Translations under genes and position numbers: made by a program
Shown: positions 4,032 through 13,902 of the stretch, piece by piece
Numbering within the stretch: the first letter of the stretch is position 1
Layout of the letters: every line of letters begins with the position of its first letter
The notes under the pieces: generated by a model
Databases searched by the model: none
Told to the model about the DNA's origin: nothing
The model's input: the letters and a program-made list of their open reading frames with translations, nothing else
Origin: Alphaproteobacteria bacterium
Lineage (GTDB): Bacteria; Pseudomonadota; Alphaproteobacteria; Micropepsales; Micropepsaceae
DNA: 64,000 bases
Reading direction: 5' to 3'
NCBI GenBank assembly: GCA_016124635.1
Contig: WGNJ01000018.1
Coordinates: 62,001 to 126,000 of the forward strand

Positions 4032-4157
4032 CCAAACGAGGCGCGCCTTGTAGCGGATTAGGCTCCCGCGTCAAAGTATCGGCCGCGTTGTGGCTTCCGC
4101 GGGAACCTAGGCGTTCGTCCACATTTTTGAAGCAGGCAGGAGTGCCAGCTCTCGTTT

Positions 4158-5038
4158 CCTCCCCTGCCCCGCGGGGGAGGTGGATCCGCCTTAAGCGAAG
4201 CGTAGGCGGAGACGGAGGGGGTGGCTCGCCGCACGTCAACTGTCACTGGCAAACGCTCAGCTTCGGCACACCCCCTCCGTCTCGCCACCATCGCTGATGC
4301 TTCTTGTCGACGCCGAGCAGGCTCGCCACCTCCGCCCGCACGCGCGTCCCGCGCGCGCAGGGGAGGAAAGTGGGAGCAAGAGTGCCAGGATTATTTTCCT
4401 CCCCTGCCCCGCGGGGGAGGTGGATCCAGAAGCGTAGGCGGAGACGGAGGGGGTGGTTGCGTTGAACGCTCGCCGCTTCAGCACACCCCCTCCGTCTCGC
4501 CACAGTCGCTGATCCTTCTGGTTGATGCAGAGCAGGCTCGCCACCTCCGCCCGCACGCGCGTTCCGCGCGCGCAGGGGAGGAAAGACTGGGCATGCATTT
4601 CGTTCTTCAGGCAGGCAGGAGTGCCAGCTCTAGTTTCCTTCCCTGCCCCGAAGAGTGCGGGGGATTTCGGCTTAGCGCAAAGTGCCAGGATTGTTTTCCT
4701 CCCCTGCCCCGCGGGGGAGGTGGATCCGCCGTAGCGAAGCGTAGGCGGAGACGGAGGGGGTGGCTCGCCGCACGTAATTTCTCACGTCAAGCGCTCGGCG
4801 TTTCAGCACACCCCCTCCGTCTCGCCACCATCGCTGATGCTTCTTGTCGACGCTGAGCAGGCTCGCCACCTCCGCCCGCACGCGCGTCCCGCGCGCGCAG
4901 GGGAGGAAAGACTGGGCGTGCACTTCGCGCGCGCAGGGGAGGAAAAAGTCGGCGCGGCGCGCAGAATTGTTTTCCTCCCCTGCTCCGCGGGGGAGGTGGA
5001 TCCGCCGCAGCGAAGCGTAGGCGGAGACGGAGGGGGTG
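4158..5038. repeat. Cluster of REP/BIME-like palindromic repeats in alternating orientation
   Basis: The 1.1-kb gap between prfC and the TraB-like gene holds no convincing gene but at least eight related units. Plus-type units (a hairpin with arms CCTCCCC and GGGGGAGG, then GTGGATCC, GCGTAGGCGGAGACGG and a G-run) lie at 4158-4224, 4398-4456, 4698-4763 and 4974-5038, with a degenerate one at 4637-4665. Minus-type units (CACCCCCTCCGTCTCGCC, then GAGCAGGCTCGCCACC, a GC-rich stem and GGGGAGGAAAG) lie at 4267-4370, 4482-4585 and 4807-4910. A stub of the minus-type 3' end recurs at 4927-4947. The phrase AGTGCCAG precedes several plus units. Alternating orientation is the hallmark of BIMEs, which arise through REP-associated transposases and can act as transcription attenuators. 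A single related unit occurs at 12.76 kb. Confidence 0.85.
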
Positions 5039-5142
5039 CGGAGGGGAGAAAATTGTGGGCGTGTGACAAAAGAAATTGGCTTGATTTGGGCGCGGCGAAG
5101 CGTGCTCTAGTGCGCCTGGAGAAAGACACAAGGAGAGAGGCA

Positions 5143-6132: not shown

Positions 6133-7500
6133 ATGACTGACGACAAAGACGATGAGCGGTCGACGTTCGGCGGCCGGCTGCGCCGTTACGCAAGAACGAC
6201 GGCGGGCGTCGGCAGCGTCGCCGCGCGCACGGGCGCGCGCTTTCTTTTCGGCCGCGCCCTGACCGACATCGCGAACGCCGCCGATGCGGCGCGAATACTG
6301 GGGCAACTGCGCGGACCCGTCATGAAGATCGCGCAAGTCGCCGGAAGCCTGCCCGACGTCTTTCCGCCCGAGTTCGCGGCCGAGCTCGCCAAGCTGCAGA
6401 CGAGCGCGCCGCCGATGGGGCCAGCCTTCGTGCGGCGCCGGATGGCGGCGGAGCTCGGGCCCGACTGGCAGAGCAAATTCAAATCCTTCGACATGACGCC
6501 CGCGGCGGCCGCGTCGCTCGGCCAAGTCCATCGCGCGACGACCAAGGACGGGCGCGCCGTCGCCTGCAAGCTGCAATATCCGGACATGCAGTCCGCCGTC
6601 GACGCCGACATCGCGCAGGTTCAAACGATCTTGTCGCTGCAGCGCGCGGCCGTGCGCACGCTCGACACCAGCGAGATCGCCGCCGAGGCCGCCGACCGCG
6701 TGCGCGAGGAGCTGGACTACGAACGCGAGGCCGCGAACATGCGCCTCTTCGGCGAAATGCTGCGCGCGACGGCCAACGTCTCGGTGCCCGAGCCGATCGA
6801 AGCGCTATCGACGCACCGCCTGTTGACGATGACCTGGCTCGACGGCGCGCCCTTTCTGCCGAGCGTCGCGGGCGCCCCCCAAGAAAGGCGGGACGCAATC
6901 GGCCGCGCGCTCCACGCCGCGTGGTGGGGACCGCTCTGCCGCTACGCCGTCATCCACGGCGACGCGCATCTCGGCAATTACACGGTGCGCGCCGACGACG
7001 GCATCAATCTGCTCGACTTCGGATGCACGCGCGTCTACGAGCCGGCGGCGGTCGGCGGGTTCGTCGATCTCTATCGCGCGCTCAAGTCGAAAGACGACGC
7101 CGCCACGATCCAAGCGTATGAGCGCTGGGGCTTTCGCGGCGCGGACCAAGCGCTCGTCGAGAAGCTCCGCGAATGGGCGAAGATCGTGTTCGAGCCGGTG
7201 CTCGACGACCGCGAGCGATTCCTCATCGAGAGCGACAGTCCGTTCGATGCGTCGCCCGAGCGCATCTGGGCGCTCAAGCGGCAGCTGCAATTCGGCTCGA
7301 CGGTCCGGCCGCCGCGCTCGTTCGTGTTCATCAGCCGCGCGCTGGTCGGGCTCGGCGCGGCGCTCGTGCATTTGAAAGCGCGTCTCAACTGGCACCGCAT
7401 GTTCGAGGCGCTGATCGCCGATTTCTCGATCGAGGCCGTGGCGCAGCGGCAGAGCGCAGCGCTTGCCTTGGCGCGCGTGCCTGATCCCTTGCGGTCTTGA
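6133..7500 (+). CDS. ABC1/ADCK/UbiB-family protein kinase-like ATPase
   Basis: A 455-residue member of the ABC1 (UbiB/ADCK) atypical kinase family. Seen directly: MKIAQ near residues 64-68, corresponding to the family KxGQ signature with A in place of G; the Ala-rich nucleotide loop AAAASLGQVHRA (124-135); the Lys of VACKLQYP (146); HGDAHLGN (275-282); and DFGCT (295-299), replacing the kinase HRD and DFG motifs. UbiB-type proteins support ubiquinone biosynthesis through an ATPase activity on membrane lipids. This protein lacks the C-terminal transmembrane pair of UbiB itself and is nearer the shorter ABC1 proteins. It lies 45 bases after the TraB-like gene and is the last high-GC gene before the AT-richer island. 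Confidence 0.92.
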   Translation: MTDDKDDERSTFGGRLRRYARTTAGVGSVAARTGARFLFGRALTDIANAADAARILGQLRGPVMKIAQVAGSLPDVFPPEFAAELAKLQTSAPPMGPAFVRRRMAAELGPDWQSKFKSFDMTPAAAASLGQVHRATTKDGRAVACKLQYPDMQSAVDADIAQVQTILSLQRAAVRTLDTSEIAAEAADRVREELDYEREAANMRLFGEMLRATANVSVPEPIEALSTHRLLTMTWLDGAPFLPSVAGAPQERRDAIGRALHAAWWGPLCRYAVIHGDAHLGNYTVRADDGINLLDFGCTRVYEPAAVGGFVDLYRALKSKDDAATIQAYERWGFRGADQALVEKLREWAKIVFEPVLDDRERFLIESDSPFDASPERIWALKRQLQFGSTVRPPRSFVFISRALVGLGAALVHLKARLNWHRMFEALIADFSIEAVAQRQSAALALARVPDPLRS

Positions 7501-7585
7501 GGCGAGCCCGCCAAGCTTTGATCCACTGCGATTACATTTCACACTTGAGGAAAGATCATATGCGCCCATTGTGCATTGATCAGGT

Positions 7586-7600
7586 CACAATTTGGTTGTG
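7586..7600. promoter_or_regulatory. Imperfectly supported inverted repeat upstream of the Avs4-like gene
   Basis: CACAA-N5-TTGTG lies about 40 bases upstream of the chosen start of the large NTPase gene, in an AT-rich 140-base leader that contrasts with the GC-rich neighbouring genes. An overlapping imperfect dyad (GATCA...TGATC) is just upstream, around 7555-7581. A dyad here could be an operator or a chance match in AT-rich DNA. No promoter boxes could be assigned. Confidence 0.25.
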
Positions 7601-7640
7601 CTAAGTTCAGATCTTGGTGAGCGTGACGTTAGGTTCAGCG

Positions 7641-10600
7641 ATGCAAAAACCAACTCTGGATTGGAACTCTATCCGCCCCCTAAACGGTGGGCGAGACAAG
7701 GGTTTCGAAGAGCTCTGCGCTCAAATTGCCCGCACTGAACGACCAAACAATTCTCAATTTGTTCGAAAGGGTACGCCAGACGCCGGCGTGGAATGTTACG
7801 CAGTTATGGACGATGGGTCCGAGTGGGGGTGGCAAGCAAAATACTTCGATACGGTTGGTGACCCGCAATGGGCACAAATCGACAAATCGGTCACGGCCGC
7901 AATTGCCAAGCATCCGCGTCTGACAAAGTACTTCATCTGCCTACCGCTTGACCTGCCAGACGCTCGCATCCAAGGGCAAATGTCTGCCAAGGAGCGTTGG
8001 GATGCTCGCGTCGAGAAGTGGAGCAATCAAGCGGCTGGAGCAGGACGAGAAATCGAGTTCATCTGTTGGGGCAGTCACGAATTACTGCAAATCCTGTCAA
8101 AACCTTCCAATGTTGGTCGCATACGGTTTTGGTTTGATGCGACGCGTTTTGATGAGGCATGGTTCGACGCGCGGCGTGACGAAGCTCTGACGACTGCAGG
8201 ACCAAGATACACCCCGGAAGTTCATGTCGATTTGCCAATCGCAACTGAGTTTGACGCGATAGGCCGAACGCCTCAATTTTTTGATCGACTGCGGACGTTA
8301 GCTCGAGGAATTCGCCAAAAGAAACGATGGGTACCATTCTCCGAGCTTCGGTCATTGAACGATGCTGTAGCAAGCTCGGCAAAGACAGCAGATTCCACCG
8401 TCGAGGAGGTGCTGGAACGGATAGCTAGCATTGAAGATCAGCCGACCGGCGACCTACACCTCAACGCCATACTTGAAGTTGGGCGAGCAGCGGAAGAGGC
8501 AGTAGATTCGCTTGGTTCGATATTTGATGAGTTTCAACGAAACCAAACCAAGGTCGAAGATACGAAGAAGAGGACCGCTACCGGTCACGATCCGTTGAGA
8601 GATGCCTGGTACGGGATAAGCCGACTATCAAGTGAGCTGCGCTCCGCGAACGAAGCGCTTGACCACGCGACGAAAACCATTGCCGCACCTATTGTCGCTC
8701 TACGCGGTCGAGCGGGCACAGGCAAAACGCACCTGCTTTGCGATGTTGCAAAACGTCGATTGTCGCGAGGCCTCCCCACCATCCTGCTAATGGGGCAGCG
8801 TTTCATCAGCGCTGACGCACCGTGGACGCAGGCGATGCAGCAACTAGACCTGCCAGGAATTTCTGCCGATGAATTCGTAGGGGCGCTGGAAGCGGCCGCG
8901 CAAGCAGTGAACTCGCGCGCGATCCTAATTGTCGACGCAATAAATGAAGGTAATGGTCGAAACGTTTGGCCGGCGCATCTCGGAGCTTTTCTCACACAAC
9001 TTGAACGGTCAGACTGGATCTCGACGGTTTTGTCCATTCGTTCATCGTACGAGGACGTGATCATTCCGGAAGAAATACGCTCGCGCATCGTATCAATTAC
9101 TCATCAAGGGTTCGCGGACCACGAATACGACGCCACGAAGATCTTCTTTGCCCACTACGGACTTGAGTTGCCCTCAACGCCGCTCCTTGCTCCGGAATTT
9201 CGGAATCCGCTGTTCCTAAAGGCACTTTGCTCAGGTCTCTCCGCAGTTGGCGAGCGGCGGCTACCGCGAGGAATGCACGGCACGACGGCAATCTTGGATA
9301 TCTTTCTTCGTGCGGTGAATAAGAAGCTAGCCGTTGATCTGGGCTACGACCCCAAATCGGAGTTGGTACAAAAAGCCCTCCAAAGGATCGCTGAAGAGTT
9401 TGCTCAAACGCGCAAACGATGGCTGACCTTGGATCACGCAAAATCTTTAGTCGACACGCTTCTTGCTGGCAGAGAGTACGAGCGGAGCCTCTATCGTGGA
9501 CTGATCGTCGAAGGCATCTTGGCAGAAGACAGATACCGACATGAGGGTCGCGCACGCGATATGGTGTTTGTCAGCTATGAGCGGTTTGCAGACTACGCGG
9601 TCGCCAAGGTTTTGCTCGATGCACACCTCGATCTGAAGGAGCCTGCGGCATCATTTGCGAAGGGCGGACCGTTAGCTTTCCTTCAGGACAAGTCTTCGGA
9701 CACAGCGCCGGGACTAATTGAAGCTCTGTGCGTCTATGTTCCTGAACGCACAGGCTTAGAGTTCGCCGATCTCGCCCCGAATGTGCCCGATCGCTGGGTG
9801 TTAAAAGAAGGCTTCCGGCAGAGCCTAGTTTGGCGCTCATACAAAGCGTTTAGCGATGCTACGACAGCGGCAATGAGCCGCCTAGAAGAAGACGAAGACG
9901 ATCAGCGAGCTACTCTTGAAGTCCTGGTGACCGTCGCAACTCTTCCCGAGCACCCGTTGAATGCGAACTTTCTAGATTTAACCCTGCGCAAAAGCGCCAT
10001 GCCAGAGCGTGATGCGTGGTGGAGCATTTGCATCTTCAAAGCTTGGGATACTAACAGTGCGGTCGATCGATTGGTGGATTGGGCAATCAATATTAACAGC
10101 GAAACCACGATCGCCGCTGAGGTGGTTATTCTTGCCGCCACTGCCTTGTCGTGGTTTCTAACAACGTCACATCGTTTCCTGAGAGATCGGGCTACCAAAG
10201 CCGTTGTGAATCTGCTCACGGGTCGGCTGGACGCTGCGAGGGCAATTGTCGAGCGTTTTGCCAGCGTAGACGACCCATACGTCTTGGAGCGAGTTTACGC
10301 TGCAGCCTACGGCGTCTCCCTCAGAAGTCGGGATAAGCAAGCTGTGGGCGCGCTTGCGACGTCCGTATTCAATCATGTGTTTCGAGCAGGCCGGCCGCCG
10401 GCCCACATTCTCCTTCGCGACTACGCAAGGGGTGTCATTGAGAGGGCAGTTGTCCTGGGCAATACGGTCACAACGGATTTGGCCGCCATCCGCCCGCCAT
10501 ACCAAAGCACGTGGCCGAAAATTCCTAGCGAAGACGAAATCAAGTCGCTCACCCCAGATTGGTCGACGCTCAAGAAGGGCAGCCCTGAGTGGGCGCGCCA

Positions 10601-12287
10601 CTCAATTTCGAACTCCGTTTTGAACGATGATTTTGCAAGCTACGTGATAGGAACCAACTCCAGTCGCACGCACTGGCTATCGGTTGAGCTTAGCGAACCG
10701 CCCTGGCGACCGGAACCAAGCCCTCAGCAACAACTTGATAGCTTTGGCACGCAAGTAACTGCTGCCGAGTTGCCTGCGTGGCGCGCCTTCGAGGAGGCCG
10801 ACCGCGAGCTTCAAGCCATACCATCTGAATTGATTACCGATTGGGAAGACGCCATCGATGGCAGTGACGATACTCAGAGCAAAAGAAAAAAGCTGAGTTT
10901 TTGGTTCGAAAAAAGGTCACCAAGGCTTAAAGAAATAGAAGGCCGAAGAACAACGGCGCTCGCAAACTATTACGCAGTCGCAACGGAGGAGCATCAGAAG
11001 CGCCTCGCCGCTCTTTTGTCCGCCAGGGAGACATACCATAAGCCACTTCCACCCCGCTTCGATCTGAAGGTAGTACAACGATATATTTTGTGGCGCGTGT
11101 TCGATTTGGGGTGGACCGTCGAGCGCTTCGGATACTTTGATCGGCATTATGCAGACCGTTATTCGCACGGCCGCGCTGCTAAGAAGCCGGAACGCATTGG
11201 TAAGAAATACCAGTGGATTGCGTACCATGAGATTTCCGCGCTGATCGCAGATCACTTTCAATACCGCGAGGAATTTGGCAACGACGTCGATGGAGACCAT
11301 CAATACGAAGGCCCATGGCAGGACAGCTTTCGAGACATCGATCCGTCATGCACCCTTCGCTCCCTTCCAGGCGGCACCTCCTGGGAAGGCCACTCTTCCT
11401 CTTGGTGGGGCCCTTTGGATTTCACTGACTGGGGTGATCCGGCCGATCCAGCTGAATGGGCACTGAAGCATTCGAACCTTCCGAGAGTTGATCAGCTCCT
11501 GTTGGTCACCAATCCGACCGACAATACTCGCTGGCTCAATTGCGCGGGATATTTTAGTTGGCACCAGAAGGCTCCCGCTGATCGGGAAACGAGTGACGTG
11601 GAGCGACGTCAACTTTGGTATCTCTCATATGGATACCTATTGCGTGCTCAGGATACCGCCGCCTTCCTTGATTGGGCGATGGCAACTGATTTTTGGGGCC
11701 GGTGGATGCCAGAACCGCCCGAGGTCTACCGGATGTTCTTGGGCGAGTATCCGTGGGCACCTGCCGCAACCCACTTTCGTAGACCTTACTACGGCGACCA
11801 CGGTTGGACCCAGCCGAACAACGACTGTCCGGTCAAATTGCGAACACTTGCGTTCGAGTACGCCAAAGAGTCGAATAGTTTTGATTGTTCAGTCGACGAC
11901 TCCTATACGTTGAGGCTTCCGGCGTCGGAAATTATTAGTAGCTTGCAGTTGCAATGGACCGGAAACGGCGCCGACTTCGTCGATGCAACGGGAACGCTAG
12001 TATCGACTGACCCAACAGCCCACTCGGTAGGGCCGAACGCGCTACTATTTCGGGAGGACGAGATCCTGAAGTTTCTTGATCAGCAGTCACTGGGGATTTG
12101 TTGGACAGTAATTGGTGAGAAGATGGTCGTCCCGAGAGGGCTCAGTGGCGGACCTTATATTCCGAGGCTCCGGACGATTGGCGCTTACAGTTACTCCAAC
12201 GGAGTTCTCGCCGGCTTTATTAAATACCTTCGTGACGAGCCACGCACACCCAATCACAACAATGTTCTGCACATTTCGCGACTCTAA
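7641..12287 (+). CDS. Avs4-like anti-phage STAND NTPase with N-terminal Mrr-like nuclease
   Basis: A 1548-residue single-gene defence candidate. The head (residues 1-150) has FEELC near 22-26, then Asp47, Glu51 and the QAK triad at 65-67, the D/E...QxK pattern of Mrr-type PD-(D/E)xK nucleases. A linker with predicted helices leads to a P-loop NTPase with Walker A GRAGTGKTH (356-364) and Walker B ILIVDAINEG (about 428-437, Asp432). FVSYERFADYAVAK near 642 resembles the winged-helix end of STAND modules. The remaining roughly 850 residues contain ERIGKKYQWIAYHE (about 1184) and a Trp-rich region near 1250-1400. Domain order and length fit Avs4, whose C-terminal half senses the phage portal protein and whose nuclease then degrades DNA (recalled family knowledge, not searched). 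ATG 7641 was preferred to TTG 7614 because the family-like start follows it. GC is visibly lower than in both neighbours, suggesting transfer. No partner gene was seen. Confidence 0.75.
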   Translation: MQKPTLDWNSIRPLNGGRDKGFEELCAQIARTERPNNSQFVRKGTPDAGVECYAVMDDGSEWGWQAKYFDTVGDPQWAQIDKSVTAAIAKHPRLTKYFICLPLDLPDARIQGQMSAKERWDARVEKWSNQAAGAGREIEFICWGSHELLQILSKPSNVGRIRFWFDATRFDEAWFDARRDEALTTAGPRYTPEVHVDLPIATEFDAIGRTPQFFDRLRTLARGIRQKKRWVPFSELRSLNDAVASSAKTADSTVEEVLERIASIEDQPTGDLHLNAILEVGRAAEEAVDSLGSIFDEFQRNQTKVEDTKKRTATGHDPLRDAWYGISRLSSELRSANEALDHATKTIAAPIVALRGRAGTGKTHLLCDVAKRRLSRGLPTILLMGQRFISADAPWTQAMQQLDLPGISADEFVGALEAAAQAVNSRAILIVDAINEGNGRNVWPAHLGAFLTQLERSDWISTVLSIRSSYEDVIIPEEIRSRIVSITHQGFADHEYDATKIFFAHYGLELPSTPLLAPEFRNPLFLKALCSGLSAVGERRLPRGMHGTTAILDIFLRAVNKKLAVDLGYDPKSELVQKALQRIAEEFAQTRKRWLTLDHAKSLVDTLLAGREYERSLYRGLIVEGILAEDRYRHEGRARDMVFVSYERFADYAVAKVLLDAHLDLKEPAASFAKGGPLAFLQDKSSDTAPGLIEALCVYVPERTGLEFADLAPNVPDRWVLKEGFRQSLVWRSYKAFSDATTAAMSRLEEDEDDQRATLEVLVTVATLPEHPLNANFLDLTLRKSAMPERDAWWSICIFKAWDTNSAVDRLVDWAININSETTIAAEVVILAATALSWFLTTSHRFLRDRATKAVVNLLTGRLDAARAIVERFASVDDPYVLERVYAAAYGVSLRSRDKQAVGALATSVFNHVFRAGRPPAHILLRDYARGVIERAVVLGNTVTTDLAAIRPPYQSTWPKIPSEDEIKSLTPDWSTLKKGSPEWARHSISNSVLNDDFASYVIGTNSSRTHWLSVELSEPPWRPEPSPQQQLDSFGTQVTAAELPAWRAFEEADRELQAIPSELITDWEDAIDGSDDTQSKRKKLSFWFEKRSPRLKEIEGRRTTALANYYAVATEEHQKRLAALLSARETYHKPLPPRFDLKVVQRYILWRVFDLGWTVERFGYFDRHYADRYSHGRAAKKPERIGKKYQWIAYHEISALIADHFQYREEFGNDVDGDHQYEGPWQDSFRDIDPSCTLRSLPGGTSWEGHSSSWWGPLDFTDWGDPADPAEWALKHSNLPRVDQLLLVTNPTDNTRWLNCAGYFSWHQKAPADRETSDVERRQLWYLSYGYLLRAQDTAAFLDWAMATDFWGRWMPEPPEVYRMFLGEYPWAPAATHFRRPYYGDHGWTQPNNDCPVKLRTLAFEYAKESNSFDCSVDDSYTLRLPASEIISSLQLQWTGNGADFVDATGTLVSTDPTAHSVGPNALLFREDEILKFLDQQSLGICWTVIGEKMVVPRGLSGGPYIPRLRTIGAYSYSNGVLAGFIKYLRDEPRTPNHNNVLHISRL

Positions 12288-12479
12288 TTCGGCTTTACGA
12301 TGAAATTGACAAATCCGCAACCTTGTATATAATTTTGAATTGTCGCTTTACGAAGCGTCTGCTCTTTGACAAGTGAATAGGTGCCGGTGAACCCGCTCGA
12401 GGCTTTGCCTCCCGCGTACGGGAATGCGGATGGTTTTGCTAGTTCTGTCGGTGTTTTCGGGACGCCCGGTCACGCCATC

Positions 12480-12547
12480 CCTGTGCATACACATGTGTGA
12501 GGATATGTAGCGGATGAAATGGCGGAAGACCGCCAATGTAGCGGATA
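12480..12547 (-). repeat. Dispersed intergenic element, copy 1
   Basis: Read on the minus strand, this block starts TATCCGCTACAT, passes through CCGCC and a second ATCCGCTACAT, and ends with a 25-base stretch (12480-12504) identical to 46402-46426. That stretch contains the dyad ACACATGTGT and ends TATGCACAGG. Overall the two blocks (68 and 69 bases) are about 80 percent identical by hand alignment, and both are preceded by a pyrimidine-rich run containing seven (here) or six consecutive Cs. It does not resemble the REP units. Its role is unknown; it may be a small non-autonomous repeat or a regulatory site. Confidence 0.75.
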
Positions 12548-12720
12548 AACGGGGGGGTTGGTGCGAAAATCGCAACTCGTGCGTGTGTGTGGTGGCGTGG
12601 CGGCGGCCGTGATGCGGCTTGAAACGCGCGGATGTGGCGTTTGTGAGAGCTTCATCCGTCACGCGTGCGAGCTTTGTGACGGCGATTGCTCAGCGATTTC
12701 AATGACGTGACGCTGTGTGA

Positions 12721-13902
<1,182 letters not shown>

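Follow-up and report, generated by a model that had tools for sequence, protein, structure and literature searches.

The locus considered here raises the question of which family of Avs anti-phage proteins its single large gene belongs to, and which phage protein the gene product would sense. The window, that is, the whole stretch of 64,000 nt that was analysed, corresponds to positions 62,001-126,000 (forward strand) of contig WGNJ01000018.1 from an Alphaproteobacteria bacterium (Micropepsales; Micropepsaceae; assembly GCA_016124635.1, 35 contigs, 93% complete). The reading frame, referred to below as avs2, is uninterrupted over 1548 codons from the ATG at 7641, with an alternative upstream TTG start at 7614 giving a protein of 1557 aa (Table 1). 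The original prediction described one 1548-residue protein with a nuclease, a P-loop NTPase and a long C-terminal region, a description confirmed by the ORF and its motifs, and assigned it to Avs4 on the basis of domain order and length, with the phage portal protein as trigger.

The family assignment was addressed using curated profile models and searches against the PDB. The PADLOC Avs2 models (PDLC02164) matched residues 4-1535 at E=0 and 1662 bits, and the NCBIfam Avs2 equivalog NF041813, whose cut-off is 1000, scored 1377 bits over residues 184-1525. With the single sequence as query, the PDB yielded E. coli Avs2 (9o4e) at 9e-185, the match starting at residue 171, and a profile of residues 349-1548 retrieved the same entry at 1321 bits over its whole length (positions 1-1161), as the sole PDB match at E <= 0.01. 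The protein thus exceeds the curated Avs2 cut-off and has a STAND NTPase with Walker A and B motifs, a homologous C-terminal sensor and an N-terminal effector. The Avs4 equivalog NF041815, in contrast, reached 20.6 bits over residues 19-119 only, against a cut-off of 1500, and the PADLOC Avs4 model 11.4 bits over residues 17-117; an Mrr-like N-terminal nuclease is present, whereas an NTPase and C-terminal region of Avs4 type were not found. That the protein is an Avs4 member sensing the portal protein is exceedingly improbable: its N-terminal 100 residues do match Avs4 weakly by HMM and their predicted fold is nearest to Avs4 8dgf, but nothing matches past residue 119, and the NTPase and C-terminal profile finds Avs2 and not Avs4 in the PDB. 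Avs4 membership was rejected on these grounds, and the portal trigger lost its support together with it. Domain order and length do not separate Avs2 from Avs4, and the Avs4-like impression arose because only the N-terminal nuclease resembles Avs4, in sequence and in predicted fold. The comparison with HMMs proposed alongside the original prediction therefore upheld an Avs-family STAND protein, with Avs2 in place of Avs4. No sequence match to Avs3 was obtained in the PADLOC or NCBIfam models. The whole protein had no match above the Pfam cut-offs, so that Pfam alone would miss avs2. Judged from its sequence, the protein is an Avs2 core with an Avs4-like nuclease; it belongs to the known Avs2 family, its nuclease subtype already lies within the PADLOC Avs2 models, and it is not a new kind of system.

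Table 1. Coordinates of avs2, its domains and motifs, and the elements of the insertion, in window positions.
Feature	Position	Strand	Basis or remark
avs2 coding sequence, 1548 aa	7641..12287	+	ATG start; PADLOC and NCBIfam Avs2 matches
Mrr-like PD-(D/E)xK nuclease effector, residues 1-165	7641..8135	+	invariant motif; predicted fold; match to Avs4 N-terminus
Putative catalytic residues E23 (7707-7709), D47 (7779-7781), E51 (7791-7793), Q65-A66-K67 (7833-7841)	7707..7841	+	conservation
Walker A, G356-H364 (GRAGTGKTH)	8706..8732	+	G356, G359, K362, H364 invariant in 68 sequences
Walker B, A427-D432 (AILIVD, then AINEG)	8919..8936	+	D432, A433 invariant
Avs2-type C-terminal sensor region, about residues 650-1530	9588..12230	+	end-to-end alignment with 9o4e; borders approximate
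Insert absent from congener G002	7512..12880	.	flanking genes 103 bp apart in G002; borders +/- about 35 bp
Imperfect direct repeat, left copy, ends ..GCCAAGCTTTGATCCA	7488..7525	+	local score 16
Imperfect direct repeat, right copy, ends ..GCCAAGCTCGAACCA	12854..12890	+	local alignment with left copy
Dispersed non-coding repeat element, inside insert, 3' of avs2	12355..12824 (core 12481-12556)	+	genome-wide copies

The N-terminal domain carries the catalytic signature of a nuclease. Glu51 and the QAK at 65-67, both named in the original prediction, were found in place, E51 ending the local sequence PDAGVE and Q65-A66-K67 lying within WQAK. Across 49 aligned N-termini of the nuclease type, F22, E23, Q28, D47, G49, E51, Q65 and S83 never vary and K67 hardly does, a pattern of conserved residues that is the usual PD-(D/E)xK arrangement of Mrr-like enzymes; among the 68 full-length sequences, E51, Q65 and K67 are kept in about 50, the remainder having another N-terminus. 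A profile of residues 1-210 gave two real matches in the PDB, 9o4e over the linker (168-209) and Avs4 8dgf over residues 4-109, and no Pfam match to the nuclease domain was obtained at E <= 0.01. The AlphaFold2 model of residues 1-210 (pLDDT 86.6) is closest in fold to Avs4 8dgf (4e-5), with EcoO109I, HindIII and other restriction enzymes matching more weakly. Structure prediction, a further check proposed at the outset, thus agreed with Avs4 for the nuclease fold; for the body, the sequence profile of 349-1548 had no Avs4 match in the PDB at E <= 0.01. The nuclease shows no relationship in sequence to the N-terminus of E. coli-type Avs2 (hhalign probability 0.1%), and the action of the effector is consequently not transferable from that type.

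The Walker A (356-364) and Walker B (Asp432) motifs predicted for the NTPase were both recovered, their key residues being unchanged throughout the full-length alignment. The C-terminal region starts as helical repeats and continues as a mixed alpha/beta part, with approximate domain borders, and holds many residues that are invariant across homologues. The model of the body (residues 349-1548; pLDDT 88.3, pTM 0.87) matched Cdc6/ORC, Avs3 and a plant NLR resistosome via the NTPase, as would be expected of a modelled STAND NTPase. The structure 9o4e was not among the Foldseek matches of this model, and the fold library may not hold it, so the link to Avs2 rests on sequence profiles.

Relatives were collected from GTDB genomes, in which 124 candidate stretches encode them and 79 loci were retained. 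The closest of them reach 50-55% identity along the whole protein and belong to Bacillota, Cyanobacteriota, Gammaproteobacteria, Acidobacteriota, Verrucomicrobiota and Myxococcota, with methanogenic archaea at slightly lower identity; the Rhodothermus homologue (51% identity) is annotated as Avs2 in RefSeq. In a tree built by a quick method, the protein falls in a strongly supported mixed-phylum group of ten, and the copies from Nitratireductor, Novosphingobium and Erythrobacter form a separate branch of their own away from it. The alphaproteobacterial host, one element of the suggestion that a divergent Avs with its own trigger would extend the known range, brings no such extension, Avs2 being already present in these three genera, in Acetobacter plasmids and in two other genomes of the class. 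The combination of an Avs2 body with an Avs4-like nuclease occurs in about 50 of the 68 homologues, in bacteria and archaea. In Avs2 members without this nuclease, the N-terminus is helical, trypsin-like or of no identified type; that of the E. coli-type members is unrelated and looks mostly helical, and that of a Flavobacterium member is weakly trypsin-like, which makes the effector the exchangeable part. Among the Bacteroidota members, L073 and L075 have an extended N-terminus, weakly trypsin-like in L073 and reminiscent of Avs1-type effectors. Four homologues (L014, L049, L061 and L025) are each represented by two ORFs in their assemblies, through frameshift or assembly error. Known defence genes are only occasional beside homologues in the sampled loci: the Carboxydocella homologue (54%) is the next gene 3' of a PADLOC defence pair made up of a DUF1156 methyltransferase and a PLD-helicase, and eight other large neighbours across six sampled loci had no PADLOC match. 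Among 50,697 phage records, a single weak partial match was found.

The gene itself stands out from its surroundings in composition, with a GC content of 0.543 against 0.60-0.69 and a GC3 of 0.563 against 0.72-0.88 in 11 nearby ORFs. The predicted drop in GC relative to the flanking genes is therefore real, at 54% against about 65% for the genome, and lower GC3 accompanies it, "AT-rich" being a relative term at these values. In congener G002, the ABC1-type kinase (72% identical) adjoins the nitronate monooxygenase (91%) with a gap of 103 bp, compared with about 5.4 kb here, and the intergenic stretch of this empty site is similar to both edges of the insert. Among 61 genomes searched (the source genome, 10 congeners, 26 of the same family and 24 of the class), avs2 was found in the source genome only, and strong matches occurred in two others among 385 genomes of the class. 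The comparison with close relatives, proposed as a check, thus returned both a gene-free site in G002 and 60 relatives searched without the gene; with the low GC, it bears out the horizontal transfer that had been suggested, and a recent, horizontal gain of avs2 by insertion is supported. Misbinning is unlikely since avs2 is internal to a 354 kb contig and synteny is conserved to its left and right. An imperfect direct repeat of about 38 bp brackets the insert; of 3000 GC-matched segments of the window, 7 reached its local score of 16, as did none of 3000 shuffles, and the repeat may stem from a target duplication that has since decayed or from recombination. An ORF resembling an integrase or a transposase was not found in 12288-12880, and the flanking genes are ordinary. 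No defence island was recognised around the kinase and the nitronate monooxygenase, and a scan of large ORFs downstream, as far as 62 kb, revealed no defence system, its matches being a TPR protein and, in a Na+/H+ antiporter, the cyclic-nucleotide-binding domain. An acquired gene of this kind might be silent or decaying and give no protection in its present host, as its isolation as a single gene, its foreign codon use and the lack of a sigma-70-like promoter in 7380-7700 could suggest; this is nonetheless very unlikely, as all 1548 codons are open and the catalytic and NTPase motifs are all intact, and the promoter scan covers the sigma-70-like type only.

The 3' part of the insert contains a dispersed repeat that is lineage-specific, with 31 copies of its core in the source genome; of 10 congeners, a single one gave matches, two in number and both weak. 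The core, of about 75 bp, consists of two GTAGCGGAT boxes flanking a small GGCGG/CCGCC hairpin, with a G run at its end. A known RNA was considered for the 3' part of the insert and set aside, there being no Rfam match to this part or to the repeat and an unremarkable fold (z = -1.0). Two other long copies, of about 470 bp and 77-82% identical, are present in the same genome (L136:5029-5492 and L137:5157-5633) beside low-GC genes, namely a guanylate-cyclase-like ORF and a DUF2971 gene; low-GC DNA borders all three long copies. Elsewhere in the window, the intergenic stretch 4050-5060 is made up of short repeats present at dozens of genome sites, and long spurious ORFs run through it.

Given the family membership, domain order, catalytic and NTPase motifs, nuclease fold and insertion found here, the protein is very probably a single-gene AVAST type 2 (Avs2) sensor-effector, for which terminase sensing, NTPase oligomerisation, DNA cleavage and abortive infection are proposed in this order. 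The trigger, oligomerisation, DNA cleavage and defence phenotype would follow by analogy with studied Avs proteins. According to PMC12931631, the nuclease effectors of Avs1-Avs4 kill by cutting the DNA of phage and host once terminase or portal is recognised, and according to PMC12724215, the large terminase is the target of Avs1-3 and the portal that of Avs4; on the triggers, both are later papers citing previous studies. The C-terminal region would bind a conserved protein of the phage, for which the large terminase subunit is the likeliest candidate, allowing the STAND NTPase to bind nucleotide and oligomerise; oligomerisation would gather the N-terminal Mrr-like PD-(D/E)xK domains, whose cutting of both phage and host DNA would end phage production in the infected cell by abortive infection. 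It is Avs2 membership, taken with terminase sensing by Avs1-3, that makes the large terminase, and not the portal, the expected trigger. The trigger is the main uncertainty, because identity to E. coli-type Avs2 stands at only about 30% in the sensor and more than one trigger is suggested for Avs2 in PMC12931631; a literature search on Avs2 structures returned nothing further. A protein that is Avs2 by descent could, with so divergent a sensor and in a sub-clade covering many phyla and archaea, recognise a phage protein other than terminase (portal or other) and signal to the same nuclease. Such a change of ligand is unlikely in view of the end-to-end Avs2 profile match, the many invariant sensor residues and terminase sensing by all of Avs1, Avs2 and Avs3, as stated in PMC12724215. 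For the whole Avs2 clade with the Avs4-like nuclease, it is quite unlikely that a phage protein is sensed besides or instead of the large terminase, with effector type and trigger reshuffled between Avs2 and Avs4.

As the clade spans many phyla and some archaea, a terminase result for one member would speak for many. The locus illustrates cleanly the gain of a single-gene immune sensor by one bacterial lineage, a close relative keeping the empty site, and it also shows that effectors are exchanged between Avs families, the sensor body of Avs2 being joined here to a kind of nuclease known from Avs4. The find is an ordinary one, since such proteins already receive the name Avs2 from existing models; it adds a good instance of a known Avs2 system. 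E. coli Avs2 (9o4e) aligns with it end to end over the NTPase and C-terminal sensor but differs in a body identity of about 30% and an N-terminal effector unrelated in sequence. Avs4 (8dgf, NF041815) shares the Mrr-like nuclease effector by sequence profile and fold, whereas its NTPase and sensor have no match here and it senses the portal, as described in PMC12724215. Avs3 (8dgc) has in common the STAND NTPase, a nuclease effector and terminase sensing, the last expected here by analogy, with a weak fold match, but is without a sequence match in PADLOC or NCBIfam. The protein is also like those of the Mrr-type Avs2 clade, including Rhodothermus marinus, Carboxydocella, Moorella, Spirulina and Aquimonas, whose members share the full-length domain layout at 50-55% identity and the nuclease motif, and differ in belonging to other phyla and lying in other gene neighbourhoods.
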